In this document: one piece after another, positions 28,695 through 47,502 of the stretch | How the letters are laid out: the number at the start of each line of letters is the position of its first letter | Numbering within the stretch: position 1 is the first letter of the stretch | Source of the DNA: an uncultured Bacteroidia bacterium | GTDB taxonomy: Bacteria; Bacteroidota; Bacteroidia; Bacteroidales; UBA932 | Assembly: GCA_902779765.1 (NCBI GenBank) | Contig: CACZCQ010000001.1 | Coordinates: 232,250 to 296,249 of the forward strand | Direction: 5' to 3' | DNA: 64,000 bases | The notes under the pieces: generated by a model | The model's database searches: none | What the model was told of the DNA's origin: nothing | What the model saw: only the letters and a program-made list of their open reading frames with translations | Program-made: the position numbers and the translations under genes

Positions 28695-29264
28695 ATGTTA
28701 TCAGAAAAAGCTAAGGAAATTGTCAAGGGTGTCGAGTCCAAGATGGAAGACACCGTGGCTTTTCTTGAGGAAGACCTCAAGACCTACAGGGTTGGCAAGG
28801 CCAATCCTTCCATCCTGAACAACGTGACTGTCAGTTACTACGGTACTGATACCCCGGTCTCGCAGGTGGCTTCCGTCTCTGTTCCCGATGCAAGGACCAT
28901 CACCATCCAGCCTTGGGAGAGGAGTCTGATTCCCGCTATCGAGAAGGCTATAATGGCCGCTAACCTGGGCTTTACTCCGCAGAACAACGGAGAGATCATC
29001 CGTTGCCCCATACCTCCGCTTACCGAAGAGAGGCGCAAGGACCTGATCAAGAAGGCCAAGGCGGCCGGCGAGAGCGCCAAGGTCGCGGTACGCAACATCC
29101 GTCGTGAAGGTGTCGATGCCCTGAAGAAGGCCGAGAAGGCTGGGGACTTCTCCGAGGACGTACAGAAGGAAGGCGAGGGCGAAATCCAGAAGGTGACCGA
29201 CGTCAAGGTGAAGGCCATAGACGTCCTCGTCTCAGCCAAGGAAAAAGAAATATTGACCGTTTAG
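28695..29264 (+). CDS. frr: Ribosome recycling factor
   Basis: A 189-residue cytoplasmic protein that splits ribosomes after termination together with EF-G. The whole sequence fits the family, with typical stretches such as FLEEDLKTYRVGKANPSIL, TITIQPWERSLIPAIEKAI, CPIPPLTEERRKDLIKKAK and AVRNIRREGVDALKKAEK. Length is close to the usual 185. It follows pyrH by 15 bases. Confidence 0.98.
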   Translation: MLSEKAKEIVKGVESKMEDTVAFLEEDLKTYRVGKANPSILNNVTVSYYGTDTPVSQVASVSVPDARTITIQPWERSLIPAIEKAIMAANLGFTPQNNGEIIRCPIPPLTEERRKDLIKKAKAAGESAKVAVRNIRREGVDALKKAEKAGDFSEDVQKEGEGEIQKVTDVKVKAIDVLVSAKEKEILTV

Positions 29265-29293
29265 TTGATTTTTTTGATTTTTTCCTATCTTTG
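29265..29293 (+). promoter_or_regulatory. Promoter of the aromatic amino acid operon
   Basis: A -7 box TATCTTTG (29286-29293) has a TTG at 29265-29267, 18 bases upstream, close to the usual spacing. Transcription should begin around 29298-29302, just at the leader-peptide start codon. It lies directly after the frr stop codon. Confidence 0.65.
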
Positions 29294-29301
29294 TGAGGAG
29301 T

Positions 29302-29355
29302 ATGGGCACACGATTCTTTTCATACGGCTTTTATTTTTATTCCCCTTCGTGTTAG
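29302..29355 (+). CDS. Phe/Tyr-rich leader peptide of the aromatic amino acid operon
   Basis: A 17-residue open frame, MGTRFFSYGFYFYSPSC, ending in TAG. Seven of its 17 residues are Phe or Tyr, the products of the pathway encoded just downstream. AGGAG lies directly before the ATG, and the -7 promoter box ends eight bases upstream, so the message is nearly leaderless. It is followed 49 bases later by a terminator hairpin. The arrangement fits ribosome-mediated attenuation: slow translation at Phe/Tyr codons would favour read-through. Calling it a gene rests on composition and position, since it is too short for homology. Confidence 0.75.
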   Translation: MGTRFFSYGFYFYSPSC

Positions 29356-29404
29356 AAGACCGGGCTTAGTCGTGTGTACATAATCATCAAGAGAAATTGT
29401 AACG

Positions 29405-29434
29405 CTGTCCGGACCTGATCCGGACAGTTTTTTT
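29405..29434 (+). terminator. Attenuator terminator before pheA
   Basis: A perfect 9-base stem, CTGTCCGGA and TCCGGACAG (29405-29413 and 29419-29427), with a five-base loop is followed by seven T. It lies between promoter and structural genes. An alternative pairing of CCGGGC (29360-29365) with GTCCGG (29407-29412) could act as antiterminator. CACACGA (29307-29313) could pair with TCGTGTG (29370-29376) to enclose CCGGGC and prevent that. Confidence 0.85.
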
Positions 29435-29450
29435 GAGCGGACTGACAGAT

Positions 29451-30284
29451 ATGACCAGAATAGCGATACAGGGTTACCGTGGATGTTTCCACGAGCAGGC
29501 GGCAAGGGAGTTCTACTCCCGGAGGAACGAAAGTGTAGGCATTGTCGAATGCCCTACTTTCGAGAGCCTGTTCAAGGCCCTGTCAGAGGGACGTGCGGAT
29601 GCTGCCGTAATGGCCATCGAGAACACCATCTCCGGAGGATTGCTCCCGAATTTCGAGCTGCTCCGTGCCAATCCATACAGGATAAAGGGAGAAGTCTATA
29701 TTCCTATCCATCAGAACCTTATGGCTCTGCCAGGGCAGGAGCTGGAAGACATCAAGGAAGTCCGTACCCACTATATGGCGATCAACCAGACCCGCCGGTT
29801 CTTCGTGAAGAACTGCCCGTGGATAAAGATGGTAGAATCGGAAGATACGGCCAAAAGCGCAATCGACATCGCACAGGGAGGACTTAAGGGTATCGGTGCA
29901 GTCGCATCCGAACTGGCGGCGGAGGAAAACGGGCTTACCATCCTGGCGCGCGGGATCGAGACTTACAAGCAGAACTTCACCAGGTTCCTCATACTGGATG
30001 ATTCGATCACAGTCCCCAGGGGGAATACCAACAAGGCATCGCTCTGCTTCACCCTTCCGCACAAGCCCGGATCCCTGGCGCAGGTCCTGACGGTCATGTC
30101 CTTCTATGACATGAACCTCACAAGGATCCAGTCGCTTCCCATCCCGGGGCAGGAGTGGCAGTATTTCTTCTATGTCGACATCAGGTTCTCGACATACGAA
30201 CGCTATCGCCAGGCCCTCAAGGCAGTGCGGCCCTTGATGGCCGGTCTTTACATTTTAGGTGAATATAAATCAGCAATGCAATGA
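29451..30284 (+). CDS. pheA: Prephenate dehydratase
   Basis: A 277-residue enzyme that converts prephenate to phenylpyruvate in phenylalanine synthesis. It starts MTRIAIQGYRGCFHEQAAREF, then shows the catalytic-domain segments AVMAIENTISGGLLPNFELL and HYMAINQTRRFF. The C-terminal ACT domain reads SLCFTLPHKPGSLAQVL and normally binds Phe as feedback inhibitor. The start at 29451 rather than 29433 was chosen because it begins with the family's first strand. It stands alone without a fused chorismate mutase, which is found instead on the last gene of the operon. Its stop overlaps the next start (ATGA). Confidence 0.96.
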   Translation: MTRIAIQGYRGCFHEQAAREFYSRRNESVGIVECPTFESLFKALSEGRADAAVMAIENTISGGLLPNFELLRANPYRIKGEVYIPIHQNLMALPGQELEDIKEVRTHYMAINQTRRFFVKNCPWIKMVESEDTAKSAIDIAQGGLKGIGAVASELAAEENGLTILARGIETYKQNFTRFLILDDSITVPRGNTNKASLCFTLPHKPGSLAQVLTVMSFYDMNLTRIQSLPIPGQEWQYFFYVDIRFSTYERYRQALKAVRPLMAGLYILGEYKSAMQ

Positions 30285-31513
30285 TAATCAAACCTTCGGA
30301 CAGGACCAGAGGAGTCCAGGAGTACTATTTTTCCCGCAAGCAGAAAGATCTCGACGCGGTCTCTGCGGAAAGGGCGGCCCGTGGTGTGGGTCCCCTTATC
30401 AACCTTGGTATAGGAGCCCCTGACGGTATGCCTCCCCAGCCTGCCATCGACGCCCTGGTGAAAGCAGCGGTCATGCCCGGTAACCATAAGTATCAGAACT
30501 ACAAGGGTCTTCCGGAACTCCGTCAGGCCTTTGCCAACTGGTATGACCGTTATTATGGAGTAACCCTCGATCCAAACGGAGGGATCCAGCCCCTGGTCGG
30601 TTCCAAGGAGGGTATCCTGCTGATCTCACTGGCCTTCGTCAATCCCGGCGAGAAAGTCCTGGTACCCGATCCGGGTTATCCTACATATTCATCTACCGTC
30701 CAGCTGGTCGGGGGAGAGGCCGTGAAATATGACCTCAAGGAGGAGAACAACTGGTTTCCCGACTTTGATGCCCTCGAAAAGATGGACCTGGACGGAGTCA
30801 AGCTCATGTGGGTGAATTATCCGAATATGCCGACAGGAGCATCTGCCACTCCCGAGCTTTACGAAAGGATCGTGGATTTCGCGAGGAGGCACAGGATACT
30901 CGTCGTCAACGATAATCCGTATTCTTTCATCCTGACCGAAAAGCCAATATCAATACTGGCCGTGGACGGCGCGTGGGACTATTGCCTGGAGCTGAATTCA
31001 TTGAGCAAGGCGCACAACATGAGCGGATGGAGGATCGGCATGGTGGCCGGCGATCCTGCGATGGTCAATGAGATCCTCAAGGTCAAGAGCCAGATGGATT
31101 CTGGAATGTTCAAGGCCTTGCAACTGGCTGCCATAGAGGCACTTGCACAAGGCCCTGATTGGTTCGGGGACCTTAATGCCGAATACAGGAGGCGCCGTGT
31201 CGCCGCCGGACGCATATTCGACGCCCTTGGAGTAAAGTATAATCCCGACTCCACGGGTCTCTTCCTCTGGGGCCGTATCCCTTCCTCTCCGGTCCCTGAG
31301 CCTGTCGAAGGGCCTGTCGAGGGAACTCACACCATGACCCCCGGTGAGGCATTGTCCGAAAGGATCCTCCATGCGACAGGTGTCTTCATCACTCCCGGTT
31401 TCGTATTCGGAAAGAACGGTGAGAACTACGTGAGGATATCGCTCTGCGCACCTGTCCCGGTACTCGAAGAGGGCCTGTCCCGCATCAAGGCTTTTCTGGA
31501 GGAAGGAGCGTGA
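30281..31513 (+). CDS. Class I/II PLP aminotransferase of the aromatic operon
   Basis: A 410-residue PLP enzyme. The landmarks are GIGAPDGMPPQPAI, VGSKEGILLISLAFVNPGE, WVNYPNMPTGA, NDNPYSFI and the PLP-lysine motif ELNSLSKAHNMSGWRIG. It resembles LL-diaminopimelate/aspartate-type aminotransferases. Its position between pheA and tyrA suggests that it aminates phenylpyruvate and hydroxyphenylpyruvate, or prephenate (inference). Residues about 336-352 (SPVPEPVEGPVEGTHTM) look like an insertion just after the strand LFLWGRIP. That stretch is encoded by a short DNA repeat described separately. Start overlaps the pheA stop. Confidence 0.9.
   Translation: MIIKPSDRTRGVQEYYFSRKQKDLDAVSAERAARGVGPLINLGIGAPDGMPPQPAIDALVKAAVMPGNHKYQNYKGLPELRQAFANWYDRYYGVTLDPNGGIQPLVGSKEGILLISLAFVNPGEKVLVPDPGYPTYSSTVQLVGGEAVKYDLKEENNWFPDFDALEKMDLDGVKLMWVNYPNMPTGASATPELYERIVDFARRHRILVVNDNPYSFILTEKPISILAVDGAWDYCLELNSLSKAHNMSGWRIGMVAGDPAMVNEILKVKSQMDSGMFKALQLAAIEALAQGPDWFGDLNAEYRRRRVAAGRIFDALGVKYNPDSTGLFLWGRIPSSPVPEPVEGPVEGTHTMTPGEALSERILHATGVFITPGFVFGKNGENYVRISLCAPVPVLEEGLSRIKAFLEEGA
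31293..31323 (+). repeat. Short dispersed repeat (GAGCCTGTCGAAG) in frame within the aminotransferase gene
   Basis: The core GAGCCTGTCGAAG lies at 31298-31310, followed by a partial second copy GGCCTGTCGAGGG (31311-31323). It is read as PEPVEGPVEG. The same 13-base core occurs in the LuxR-type gene at 57353-57365 (also read PEPVEG) and in rpsB at 47458-47470. Sequences of this type occur as dispersed repeats in many bacterial genomes. Confidence 0.65.
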
Positions 31514-31538: not shown

Positions 31539-32393
31539 ATGATAGTAGGAGTTATAGGCCTCGGCCTCATCGGAGGCTCGATGGCGATTGATTTGAAGAG
31601 ACGCGGGTTCGCGGACAAGGTGCTCGGAGTCGAGAACGACCCGGTCGCCTCCACCGCCGCCTTGAAAATGGGACTTGCTGACGAGATAGTCACTTTCGAA
31701 GACTGTGTCCGCGGGAGCGATATCGTGGTCGTTGCAGTGCCGGTCGGTACTGCAGTCCGGATGCTTCCGAAGGTGCTGGACATATTCGGAGAAGAGGGGA
31801 ACGGGACCAAGATAGTCCTGGACACCTGCTCCACAAAGAGCCAGATTGTCCGTTCGGTGCATTACCATCCGCAGCGCGGCAGGTTCGTGGCCACACACCC
31901 CATGGCGGGTACCGAATACTCCGGCCCCTGGGCCGCGATGCCCAACCTGTTCGACGGAAGGGCATGCATTTTCGCCAATTCGGAAGATTCGGATCCCCAG
32001 GCACTCAAGACTGTCGAGGGACTGTATGACATCCTGAACATGCGTCCTATCTACATGAATGCCGACAATCACGACGTCCATACAGCCTATGTCTCCCATA
32101 TCTCCCATATCACCTCGTTCGCACTGGCCCTGACCGTGCTGGAAAAGGAGCAGGATGAGAAACACATCTTCGACCTTGCGTCCGGAGGTTTTTCATCGAC
32201 GGTGAGACTTGCCAAGAGTTCCTCCGACATGTGGGTCCCCATACTTACCCAGAACAGGGACAACGTCCTGCACGTCATCGACACCTATCTGGACAAGATG
32301 AAGGAATTCCGCGATGCGATCTCGTCCTTCGACGAGGCCAGGATAGAGAAACTCATACACGAAGCCAACAGGATCAAGAAGATACTCAGATAA
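31539..32393 (+). CDS. tyrA: Prephenate dehydrogenase
   Basis: A 284-residue NAD-dependent enzyme that makes 4-hydroxyphenylpyruvate from prephenate for tyrosine synthesis. The Rossmann motif is VGVIGLGLIGGSMAIDLKRRG. The catalytic region includes THPMAGTEYSGPWAAMPNLFDG (landmark) and a later DNHDVHTAYVSHISHITSFA with the expected histidines. The dehydrogenase is not fused to chorismate mutase. The gene lies 25 bases after the aminotransferase and four bases before the DAHP synthase gene. Confidence 0.96.
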   Translation: MIVGVIGLGLIGGSMAIDLKRRGFADKVLGVENDPVASTAALKMGLADEIVTFEDCVRGSDIVVVAVPVGTAVRMLPKVLDIFGEEGNGTKIVLDTCSTKSQIVRSVHYHPQRGRFVATHPMAGTEYSGPWAAMPNLFDGRACIFANSEDSDPQALKTVEGLYDILNMRPIYMNADNHDVHTAYVSHISHITSFALALTVLEKEQDEKHIFDLASGGFSSTVRLAKSSSDMWVPILTQNRDNVLHVIDTYLDKMKEFRDAISSFDEARIEKLIHEANRIKKILR

Positions 32394-32397
32394 GAAT

Positions 32398-33489
32398 ATG
32401 CAACGACAGCTAGACATAATCCCCGTTTCGGAGTGGGGATTCTTCGACGAAAGCATACCCCCTCTTGTGATAGCGGGTCCCTGCAGCGCCGAATCTGAAC
32501 TCCAGGTAATGATGACGGCGAAAGGCCTCCACGACTTCGGCATCCACGTTTTCCGTGCCGGAATATGGAAACCCCGTACGCATCCCGGATCCTTCGAGGG
32601 TGTCGGGGTTGAAGGCCTGAGATGGCTCCAGAAGGTGAAGAGGGAATATGGGATGAAGGTCTGCACCGAGGTGGCCGGAGAGAAACATGTATATGAATGC
32701 ATGAAATACGGAGTCGACATGGTCTGGATCGGTGCCAGGACCACGGCCAATCCTTTCATGGTTCAGGAAATAGCTGATGCACTGAGGGATACGGATATCC
32801 CGGTGCTGGTCAAGAATCCGGTCAATCCAGACCTGGACCTTTGGATAGGAGCCCTTGAAAGGCTCAACCGCGCCGGGATCAGGAAACTCGGAGTCGTCCA
32901 CCGCGGTTTTTCCACGACCCAGAAGATACCTTACAGGAACCTTCCTGGCTGGCAGATGGCTGTGGAACTCAGGACCTTGTTCCCCAACCTGCCTTTCTTT
33001 GCGGATCCAAGCCATATGGGAGGGTCCCGCCAGTATCTCAAGGAACTTTCCCAGAGGGCGATGGACCTGGGTCTGGACGGAATCATGATCGAGTCGCACT
33101 GCGACCCTTCCTGTGCCCTGAGCGATGCCAAGCAGCAGATCGTGCCGTCTGACTTGAAGGTCCTCCTCGAAAGCCTGACGGTACGCCAGAAATGTACGAA
33201 TGACAGGGAGTACAACGAGAACATCGAGCAGCTGAGGACAAGGATAGACGTCATAGACGAGAACCTGCTCATCTCACTCGGCTCCAGGATGGAGGTTTCC
33301 CGTAAGATCGGAGAGTTCAAGAAGGCACACAATATCGCGATCGTCCAGGCTCAGCGCTGGGACGAGATCCTTTCCGACATGATAGAGAAAGGGAAGCATT
33401 ACGGTCTTTCCGAGCATTTCATCACGACATTCTTCAATGCAATCCACGACGCTTCTGTAGCCGAGCAGAACAAGATCCTGGAAGGATAA
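32398..33489 (+). CDS. Bifunctional DAHP synthase / chorismate mutase
   Basis: A 363-residue protein with two domains. Residues about 1-260 are a DAHP synthase of the KdsA-like (type I beta) group, with VIAGPCSAESELQV, FRAGIWKPRTHPGSFEG and FADPSHMGGSRQYL. It makes the first intermediate of the shikimate pathway from PEP and erythrose-4-phosphate. Residues about 275-363 are an AroQ-type chorismate mutase (EQLRTRIDVIDENLLISLGSRMEVSRKIGEFK shown in part), which makes prephenate. This fusion is common in Bacteroidetes and lets the mutase domain mediate feedback control. It is the last gene of the operon, ending two bases before the convergent recombinase gene. Confidence 0.95.
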   Translation: MQRQLDIIPVSEWGFFDESIPPLVIAGPCSAESELQVMMTAKGLHDFGIHVFRAGIWKPRTHPGSFEGVGVEGLRWLQKVKREYGMKVCTEVAGEKHVYECMKYGVDMVWIGARTTANPFMVQEIADALRDTDIPVLVKNPVNPDLDLWIGALERLNRAGIRKLGVVHRGFSTTQKIPYRNLPGWQMAVELRTLFPNLPFFADPSHMGGSRQYLKELSQRAMDLGLDGIMIESHCDPSCALSDAKQQIVPSDLKVLLESLTVRQKCTNDREYNENIEQLRTRIDVIDENLLISLGSRMEVSRKIGEFKKAHNIAIVQAQRWDEILSDMIEKGKHYGLSEHFITTFFNAIHDASVAEQNKILEG

Positions 33490-33491
33490 GG

Positions 33492-34412
33492 TCAGAGCAG
33501 TTTCATCCTGTTCTCGACGCATTTGCGTTTTTGTTCCAGCCCCGGGTGGACATACAGGTTGAGGGTGGTGCTGATATTCGAATGTCCCAGTATCGAACTG
33601 AGGGTCTTGATGTCACAGCGGCTCTCCACGCACCTTGTTGCAAACGTGTGCCTCAGGCTGTGTACCTTATGCTTCTTGAGCCCGAGTTTTCCCAGGACCT
33701 TCTTGAAGTTGTTCCTGAAGGTCTGCGGGTCCGCGGGTTTAGATGTCCCGCTCACGATGAATGCCTTGCCATCCTGGTCCTTGTGCACTCCCTGCAAAAG
33801 CTTTATCAGGGAACCCGTAACCGGAACATACCTGCGCGAATCCGGAGTTTTCGGGTTTCCGATCACCAGTCTTGACTTGGAGTCCTTCCCACTGGAATCG
33901 TTCAATCTGAAAACCGTCCTTCGAATATAGATGACTTTGTTGTCAAAGTCAATGTCGCTCCATCTCAGGGCACAGATCTCTCCGTTGCGCAATCCGCAGC
34001 AGATGCAAATCAGAAGGCCCAGGTTGCGCGGGGTCGGGTTATCCGCCAGGTACCGGGCAAGTTTCCTTTCTTCCTTGGTGGAAAGGACATCGGCTTCATA
34101 TTTCTGCGTCCTTGCAGGATATATGGGTTTGAAAAAGTGATGTCCGGTCCATCCCCTTCTTTCACAGAAACGTGTAACCATCTCCAGGACTAGGACTATC
34201 CTCTTGACCATGGTGAGTCCAAGACCGTCCTTCAATTTACTGTCGACCATCTCCTGAATCGAATCGTCAGTAATATCATCGAGGGTTAAGAATCTGGGTT
34301 CCAGATGTTTCCGAATTACGAAGGAATATGCGGCCAGCGAAGAGGCCTTGACATATTTCAATTTTTCAGCTTCCCAAAGACGGCAGGCGTCCTTGAATCT
34401 GATAGCAGTCAT
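33492..34412 (-). CDS. Orphan tyrosine recombinase (phage-integrase family)
   Basis: A 306-residue site-specific recombinase. The N-terminal core-binding domain (about 1-110) is followed by the catalytic domain. All catalytic positions are visible: Arg in CGLRNGEICALRW, Lys in NPKTPDSRRYV, His-x-x-Arg in HSLRHTFATR, His in ILGHSNISTT, and the nucleophile Tyr in LNLYVHPG. No phage, plasmid or transposon genes lie beside it. It is divergent from a SusC/SusD operon across a 359-base AT-rich gap. In Bacteroidetes, similar orphan recombinases can invert promoters or shuffle outer-membrane genes. That role here is a hypothesis. A -7-like TATCTTTA lies at 34445-34452 on the minus strand. Confidence 0.92.
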   Translation of the reverse strand: MTAIRFKDACRLWEAEKLKYVKASSLAAYSFVIRKHLEPRFLTLDDITDDSIQEMVDSKLKDGLGLTMVKRIVLVLEMVTRFCERRGWTGHHFFKPIYPARTQKYEADVLSTKEERKLARYLADNPTPRNLGLLICICCGLRNGEICALRWSDIDFDNKVIYIRRTVFRLNDSSGKDSKSRLVIGNPKTPDSRRYVPVTGSLIKLLQGVHKDQDGKAFIVSGTSKPADPQTFRNNFKKVLGKLGLKKHKVHSLRHTFATRCVESRCDIKTLSSILGHSNISTTLNLYVHPGLEQKRKCVENRMKLL

Positions 34413-46602: not shown

Positions 46603-47502
46603 ATGCCACGCACAAATTTCCAAGAACTTCTTGATGCAGGCGTACATTTCGGCCACCTGGCCAGGAAATGGAATCCCAAGATGGCCCCTTACATCTTCGA
46701 CCAGAAGAACGGGATCCACATCATCGACCTGCACAAGACCATCGTCAAGATAGACGAGGCTGCCGATGCAATGAAAGAACTTGCGCGCTCAGGCCGCAAG
46801 ATCCTCTTTGTCGCCACCAAGAAACAGGCGAAGGAGATCGTTGCTGAGAAGGCTACGGCAGTCAACATGCCATCCATTACCGAGCGTTGGGCTGGTGGTA
46901 TGCTTACCAACTTCCCGACAATCCGTAAGGCTGTCAAGAAGATGAACACCATCGACAAGATGAAGGAAGACGGTACATTTGACAAGCTCGCCAAGAGGGA
47001 GCGCCTTCAGATCAACCGTCAGAGGGAGAAGCTTGAGAAGAACCTCGGTTCCATCAGGGACATGAGCCGTCTTCCCTCCGCCCTCTTCGTCGTCGATATC
47101 CAGAAAGAGGCCAATGCCGTCAAGGAGGCCAACCGTCTTAACATACCGGTATTCGCAATGGTTGACACTTGTTGCGATCCCACCCCTATTGATTATGTGA
47201 TACCGGCCAATGATGACGCCACCAAGTCCATCGAGCTCGTCATGAACATCCTCTGCCAGGCCATCGAAGAAGGTCTCAGCGAGAGGAAGCTTGAGAAGGA
47301 CAAGGAAGTTGCCGAAGAGGCAGCTGAAGGTGAAGCCCTCGCCAATCCTACCGGCAAGAAGCTCCGCGCCCGCAAGAGCGCCAAGCCCGTTGACGTGACC
47401 GCTGAGTCCGCCCCAGTCGAGGAGGCCGCTCCGGTTGCCGAGCCTGCCCCGGTTGCTGAGCCTGTCGAAGCACCCGCTACTGAAGAACCCAAGGCTGAAT
47501 AA
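46603..47502 (+). CDS. rpsB: 30S ribosomal protein S2
   Basis: A 299-residue small-subunit protein. The start MPRTNFQELLDAGVHFGHLARKW is the family's standard beginning; a longer frame from 46510 runs through the structured leader and was rejected. Core landmarks are KKQAKEIVAEKA, RWAGGMLTNFPTIRKAVKK and VDTCCDPTPIDYVIPANDDA. A C-terminal extension of about 50 residues is rich in Ala, Pro and Glu (PVAEPAPVAEPVEAP). Such tails are common in Bacteroidetes S2. It is followed 18 bases later by tsf. Confidence 0.97.
   Translation: MPRTNFQELLDAGVHFGHLARKWNPKMAPYIFDQKNGIHIIDLHKTIVKIDEAADAMKELARSGRKILFVATKKQAKEIVAEKATAVNMPSITERWAGGMLTNFPTIRKAVKKMNTIDKMKEDGTFDKLAKRERLQINRQREKLEKNLGSIRDMSRLPSALFVVDIQKEANAVKEANRLNIPVFAMVDTCCDPTPIDYVIPANDDATKSIELVMNILCQAIEEGLSERKLEKDKEVAEEAAEGEALANPTGKKLRARKSAKPVDVTAESAPVEEAAPVAEPAPVAEPVEAPATEEPKAE
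47458..47470 (+). repeat. Copy of the GAGCCTGTCGAAG core within rpsB
   Basis: The 13-base core matches the copies in the aminotransferase and LuxR genes exactly. Here it is read AEPVEA within an Ala/Pro/Glu-rich tail that also repeats PVAEP, so it may be coincidental rather than an insertion. Confidence 0.35.

Follow-up and report, generated by a model that had tools for sequence, protein, structure and literature searches.

The window analyzed here, a stretch of 64,000 nucleotides from an uncultured Bacteroidales bacterium, carries at positions 29286 to 29451 an element that is very probably a ribosome-mediated transcription attenuator, predicted to sense Phe and Tyr jointly and to control the aromatic amino acid operon that follows it. 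The observations computed for this assignment are the anatomy of the element, its conservation, the joint change of its segment 2 and terminator among relatives, and the match between its codons and the content of the operon.

Anatomy of the element and its operon

The element consists of a -7 box, a leader ORF, a competing segment downstream of the stop codon of this ORF, and a terminator, all on the forward strand. The promoter -7 element TATCTTTG (29286 to 29293) fits, by reading of the sequence, the motif TAnnTTTG, which we take to be the -7 consensus of the Bacteroidota-type promoter. The leader ORF MGTRFFSYGFYFYSPSC* (29302 to 29355) is a conserved frame of 17 codons, four of them for Phe and three for Tyr. 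Segment 1 has an outer arm, CACACGA (29307 to 29313), whose partner is TCGTGTG (29370 to 29376), and an inner arm, CGGCTT (29325 to 29330), which lies within the control codons and takes part in a helix that reads CGGTTT:AGACCG in the clade and is a bulged pairing in the window. Segment 2, CCGGGC (29360 to 29365), follows right after the leader stop and is the candidate 5′ half of an antiterminator, pairing with GTCCGG (29407 to 29412). The latter doubles as the antiterminator 3′ half and belongs to segment 3, the 5′ arm of the terminator (29405 to 29413); segment 4 (29419 to 29434) combines the 3′ arm (29419 to 29427) with a T tract (29428 to 29434), such that the stem comprises nine perfect pairs followed by seven T. 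The -7 box, the Phe/Tyr frame, the stems, and the T run had all been described in the initial annotation of this DNA, and every item was found again in its place. The fold of the element, taken by itself, stands out only modestly from chance (z, −2.06; an equally good fold is reached by 6 of 200 shuffles). An RNA model of the element run against its own genome gives a single match at an E value of ≤0.1, namely, the window element itself.

The operon order that had been read from the translations was borne out by Pfam matches: pheA, encoding prephenate dehydratase (29451 to 30284, + strand; PF00800), a class I/II aminotransferase (30281 to 31513, +; PF00155), tyrA, encoding prephenate dehydrogenase (31539 to 32393, +; PF02153 and PF20463, with NF006307 above its cutoff), and a DAHP synthase-chorismate mutase fusion (32398 to 33489, +; PF00793 and PF01817). 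The start of pheA was taken as the ATG at 29451; the mechanical ORF list opens earlier, at the TTG at 29433. The upstream neighbor is frr (28695 to 29264, +; PF01765), and a Phage_integrase gene (33492 to 34412, −) abuts the operon end on the opposite strand. Within the aminotransferase, the peptide SSPVPEPVEGPVEG (31283 to 31348) is coded by a stretch that holds GAGCCTGTCGA; this word recurs at 47458 and 57353 of the window, and the coding stretch resembles an in-frame insertion of a short repeat element. The closest named pheA (L165) shares 87% identity and comes from a Bacteroidia bin. In the pheA tree, the window clade includes Bacteroidales bins, several of them from ruminant gut by title, and Candidatus Cryptobacteroides, and the window host probably belongs among these.

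Distribution, probable loss, and doubling of the leader

Conservation was assessed in the regions upstream of pheA relatives from genomes of the same genus, order, and phylum and from 80 named contigs; the 243 regions were reduced to 236 distinct ones by collapsing those with identical last 120 nt, and one locus with pheA at a contig end (L029) was left out. A lax leader rule (at least five Phe/Tyr codons and 20% of residues) gave 166 leaders but was dropped for a 12-codon rule because 420 of 3320 shuffles passed it. The strict rule, an ATG frame with at least seven Phe/Tyr codons in 12, is satisfied by 156 of the 236 distinct regions; among the controls, it is passed by 11 of 2360 dinucleotide shuffles and, for reverse complements, by 1 of 236. 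The conservation check in relatives that had been proposed with the initial annotation was thereby run, and the leader, the terminator, and the competing segments recur across many Bacteroidia genomes.

These counts bear on the alternative that the element is a plain terminator of the pyrH-frr transcript, followed by an independent pheA promoter, with Phe/Tyr codons arising by chance in T-rich DNA. The location of the element right after frr is what this alternative would predict, and both the commonness of TTT and TAT in AT-rich DNA and the ease with which shuffles pass the lax rule lend it some plausibility. However, chance codons do not explain the excess of strict-rule leaders over shuffles or the way in which the codons track operon content (see below), and a plain frr terminator is at odds with a -7 box that precedes the leader, a terminator that comes after it, and leaders that still stand before pheA where the flank has no frr match. 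We consider this explanation very unlikely. Along the same lines, the frr-pheA gap, initially taken as the home of the element, holds as such in the window, but outside the clade the leader precedes pheA without an frr match in the flank.

At a threshold of at least six Phe/Tyr codons in 12, leaders were found in 39 of 76 regions of the window clade, 80 of 92 from the rest of the order and named Bacteroidia, 41 of 44 from other orders of the class, 3 of 22 from outside the class, and 1 of 2 from Lentisphaerota bins; the 22 places outside the class are a selection among the matches listed, with G506, G514, and G366 (fairly near pheA) left out. The three leaders outside the class (L099, L123, and L145) are those with the best pheA matches of the 22 (E values from 4e-72 to 7e-64), a pattern suggestive of joint transfer of the operon and its leader. 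Two bins labeled Lentisphaerota (L222 and L224) contain a pheA that is 52 to 53% identical to the query, preceded by a Phe/Tyr-containing frame and a terminator-like hairpin; the frame of L222 meets the leader rule and that of L224 fails it. The presence of these genes in bins so labeled reflects either transfer or mis-binning.

The promoter motif accompanies the leader. All 39 clade leaders and 77 of the 118 others have TAnnTTTG within the 75 nt that precede their ATG, compared with 230 of 3140 shuffles, and the motif lies 8 nt ahead of the ATG in 21 of the 39 clade leaders as well as in the window. Among the residues of the 166 lax-rule leaders, Phe accounts for 24.4% and Tyr for 17.0%, and both are specified by synonymous mixes of codons (TTT, 608; TTC, 268; TAT, 376; TAC, 234). 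Sensing of Trp in addition to Phe and Tyr was considered and rejected: Trp makes up only 1.0% of the residues and is present in 33 of the 166 leaders.

A riboswitch or T-box that binds the amino acid or the tRNA directly would equally be at home before an amino acid operon with a terminator, and nothing further was found in its favor. The conserved feature is instead a reading frame with synonymous Phe/Tyr codon mixes, and the Rfam search of the window at gathering scores returned tRNA only, with no leader or switch family (Bacteroid-trp included); over the element region, even an E value of up to 10 produced chance-level matches only (E, 5.6 to 9.2). Direct binding of this kind thus seems scarcely credible.

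The leader is absent in 37 of the 76 regions of the window clade. No displaced leader was found in the flanks of these 37 members, where only two weak frames (6 of 12; L167 and L173) were detected, and pheA mostly follows frr directly: the median frr-pheA gap is −1 nt (range, −4 to 204; n = 29) in leaderless members versus 211 nt in those with a leader (n = 32). When presence of the leader is mapped onto a tree of pheA from the clade plus six outgroup rows, 13 changes are required, at least 4 of them on well-supported branches; because all six outgroup rows carry the leader, loss is the likelier direction. The supported pheA group of the window itself consists of nine rows, seven of them without a leader (7 of the 8 rows other than the window). 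Conversely, two Phe/Tyr leader and terminator units stand in series in 15 of the 236 regions, from several families (L024, L032, L045, L046, L052, L056, L061, L080, L083, L089, L091, L114, L218, L219, and L236), and tandem units also precede tyrA operons (L285, L288, L290, and L296).

Competing pairings and the proposed switch

A terminator-like hairpin (score of ≥22) follows 150 of 164 leaders, compared with 6 of 820 shuffled tails. Pairing tests were carried out on the 157 of 164 leaders with a terminator score of ≥18 and then on the 139 of these 157 with a helix score of ≥14; segment 2 was chosen as the best-pairing stretch, and because the rows are related, the p-values are rough. Segment 2 is far from uniform, with 102 distinct helix sequences among the 139 loci, and it tends to match the terminator of its own locus: the duplex energy of the segment 2 region is −12.7 kcal/mol with its own terminator arm versus −8.4 with foreign arms. 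Watson-Crick runs of at least 6 occur in 91 of 157 own pairs, versus 3734 of 24492 foreign pairs and 119 of 1570 shuffles, and in 12 of 157 cases for a control stretch taken before the leader. Not one of 2000 permutations reached the observed mean. This matching of own over foreign arms argues for a predicted antiterminator that competes with the terminator; the attenuator reading put forward initially gains support here, as segment 2 and the terminator change together in relatives. The leader ORF rich in codons for the pathway products and the intrinsic terminator between this ORF and the first gene are both present.

Pairing between the leader and the segment 2 region (1:2) is likewise stronger than in shuffles (−18.5 versus −12.7), at the 5% level or better in 93 of the 139 loci. 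In an alignment of the 39 clade sequences, the fraction of paired cells is 93.8% for 3:4, 93.9% for 2:3, 88.4% for the inner 1:2 helix, and 66.3% for the outer 1:2 helix, and sliding one arm lowers these percentages. Within the clade, the 2:3 helix fails to exceed column shuffles (134 of 500 as high) because it is nearly invariant there. The outer 1:2 helix is the least constant part, and a shift by 3 columns leaves it with as many double changes. A protector pairing is thus found across the 139 loci and in the inner helix, the outer helix being weak by itself. The last Phe/Tyr codon precedes segment 2 by a median of 15 nt (SD, 4.4), compared with an SD of 11.9 for the distance to the stop. 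A fixed spacing between these codons and segment 2 was nevertheless set aside as descriptive only: 82% of shuffled arms fall within 9 to 23 nt, versus 98% of real ones, because the GC-rich patch itself lies there.

The start site, the stalling, the switching, and the read-through in the cell are proposed as follows. Judged from the -7 box, RNA polymerase would start a few bases ahead of the leader ATG; an RNA that is almost leaderless would imply that the first ribosome is close behind the polymerase. With ample charged Phe- and Tyr-tRNA, the ribosome would reach the leader stop and cover segment 2, or segment 1 would pair with the segment 2 region; with segment 2 thus blocked, the terminator would form and transcription would stop ahead of pheA. 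When Phe or Tyr is scarce, the ribosome would stall in the control codons and cover segment 1, allowing segment 2 to pair with segment 3 before segment 4 exists, and the polymerase would continue.

This scheme was examined by folding the RNA around a ribosome footprint of 28 nt, with 29298 as the presumed start and 29418, the last position ahead of the 3′ terminator arm, as the end. In the window, the predicted probability of 2:3 pairing is 0.61 to 0.96 with the A site at codons 5 to 11, 0.67 at codon 12 (Phe), only 0.24 at codon 13 (the last Tyr), and 0.00 at the leader stop. Without a ribosome, the same RNA yields 0.001 for 2:3, and the outer 1:2 helix is likewise unpredicted (0.03). Once the 3′ arm is included, the terminator dominates the window folding in every case (0.97 or more); the choice must therefore be kinetic, made during transcription. 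Over 139 loci, the mean 2:3 probability is 0.89 with the ribosome stalled at Phe/Tyr codons, 0.16 at the stop, and 0.62 with no ribosome.

The same folding raises the alternative that attenuation operates chiefly by masking of segment 2 by the ribosome at the stop codon, with no real 1:2 hairpin, or that Rho or RNA-binding proteins assist. The complete suppression of 2:3 by a ribosome covering segment 2 at the stop in the window and the inconstancy of the outer 1:2 helix are compatible with masking. The alternative as a whole nonetheless appears improbable. Against masking as the chief mechanism, 1:2 pairing surpasses shuffles in most loci, and in 48 of the 139 the distance from segment 2 to the stop is too great for masking to suffice, a ribosome at the stop leaving the segment exposed (0.45). 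An attenuator with a 1:2 protector remains the preferred reading.

Control codons, operon content, and known systems

Operons in which pheA and tyrA stand apart offer a natural experiment on what the leader senses. For example, in a genome of the same genus without a pheA match (G020), the RNA model finds a leader (E, 6.7e-12), MKESTLNHYSGIFVYYLSR (L283), with three Tyr codons and one Phe codon, ahead of an aminotransferase-tyrA-DAHP synthase operon from which pheA is absent. In total, 20 places were collected where tyrA is present and the contig gives no pheA match within 10 kb (L283 to L301 and L304); L303 was left out because a distant pheA lies downstream (L307), and G014 and G031 (contig ends; L305 and L306), G199 (a fragment), and five genomes in which the pheA-tyrA pair is distant were left unclassed. 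A leader with a terminator is present at 13 of the 20 places. No leader was found at the other 7 (L284, L286, L289, L292, L300, L301, and L304), among which L286 and L292 have short flanks and L301 holds a pheA remnant. In the latter (G036), the remnant is short and lies between frr and the aminotransferase.

The median Tyr share of Phe plus Tyr codons is 0.67 in the 13 leaders before tyrA without pheA versus 0.44 for the 68 combined operons (Mann-Whitney p, 3e-4). One of the 13, L283, had been located through the leader search, and excluding it leaves 12 leaders with a median of 0.63 (p, 9e-4). Two of these loci, L294 and the two-unit L288, have a dense stretch without any Phe, and three of the 13 are exceptions that are not Tyr rich (L295, L297, and L299). 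Conversely, all four leaders before pheA only, i.e., with no match to aminotransferase, tyrA, or DAHP synthase in at least 1.2 kb downstream (L030, L053, L055, and L065), have little or no Tyr, with a share of 0 to 0.14; among 138 others, the median is 0.43 and just 2 are equally low. No other evidence speaks as strongly for the codons as the sensor as does this tracking of operon content by codon content, and the doubt expressed at the outset about a joint Phe and Tyr sensor is answered by the codon split.

A comparable arrangement exists elsewhere in the same genome, where a His-rich frame, MNASHKHHHSRAVQVW, precedes hisG (L245:1228-1278); a strong hairpin that resembles a terminator and has a T tract comes after the frame. 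At least four His codons in 12 were found in 22 of 27 hisG upstream regions, from this genome and its relatives, versus 1 of 540 shuffles. With both hisG and Phe/Tyr leaders present, leader-peptide attenuation looks like a habit of the group and like the ordinary control of these syntheses in a class rich in gut bacteria. No Thr/Ile leader stood out near the homoserine dehydrogenase gene of this genome. The genome, given as 97.75% complete, has no match to TrpE (PF04715) or IlvD (PF00920), and Trp and Ile/Val auxotrophy is possible.

We lean toward placing the element in an old family of attenuators that spans the class and can be retuned: working from nearly leaderless RNA, these leaders would have a ratio of Phe to Tyr codons that evolution has reset to the output of the operon (Phe, Tyr, or both). 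The unit can be doubled in series, and such doubling should sharpen the response. The coupling of transcription and translation in Bacteroidota is, to our knowledge, little studied, and because the device needs a ribosome close behind the polymerase, it makes this coupling testable with a simple reporter.

Related regulation has been proposed in Flavobacterium psychrophilum, a member of the same class as the window host, and the Bacteroid-trp motif is linked to trp genes. A putative attenuator before the Bacteroides thetaiotaomicron operon pheA > hisHb > aroAI-aroQ > tyrA was predicted in 2005 (PMC1173090, Table 7, from the Merino website); the operon kind and phylum are the same, and the passages concerned name no leader peptide, codons, or mechanism. 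For F. psychrophilum, hints that leader peptides attenuate amino acid operons have been noted (PMC9723704), with the same proposed mechanism; the operons are unnamed in the passage concerned, and overlap with the present element is possible. Long 5′ UTRs of B. thetaiotaomicron are described as containing short ORFs reminiscent of leader peptides (PMC7366714). The Bacteroid-trp motif (RF01692; a table row in PMC2864571) is likewise a Bacteroidetes cis-regulatory RNA before amino acid genes, and nothing in the window matches it at gathering scores. Further afield, a Phe-coding upstream ORF has been proposed before aroF in Acholeplasma (PMC8632094), and leader ORFs have been counted in many phyla (PMC4833913). 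The tandem attenuators of Salmonella mgtCBR comprise two short ORFs in one leader region with a proposed action on attenuation (PMC3641672); the two ORFs differ from each other there, whereas in the tandem loci found here the two Phe/Tyr units resemble each other and both have a terminator of their own.

In a search of open papers, no Phe/Tyr leader was found described for Bacteroidota. Within that scope, four aspects appear to be undescribed: the breadth of the element in the class, the joint Phe/Tyr sensor in Bacteroidota, the tandem form, and the way in which the codons are reset according to operon content.

The mechanism itself is of the classical trp/his/pheA type. The pheA, his, and trp attenuators of Proteobacteria combine a leader with control codons, a 1:2 protector, a 2:3 antiterminator, and a 3:4 intrinsic terminator, and the Bacteroidia element has the same parts in the same order. 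Unlike the Proteobacterial leaders, it matches no Rfam leader family, unites Phe and Tyr codons in one leader, places that single leader ahead of the Phe and Tyr branches together with DAHP synthase, and begins at a Bacteroidota-type promoter, with the leader ATG 8 nt past the -7 box.
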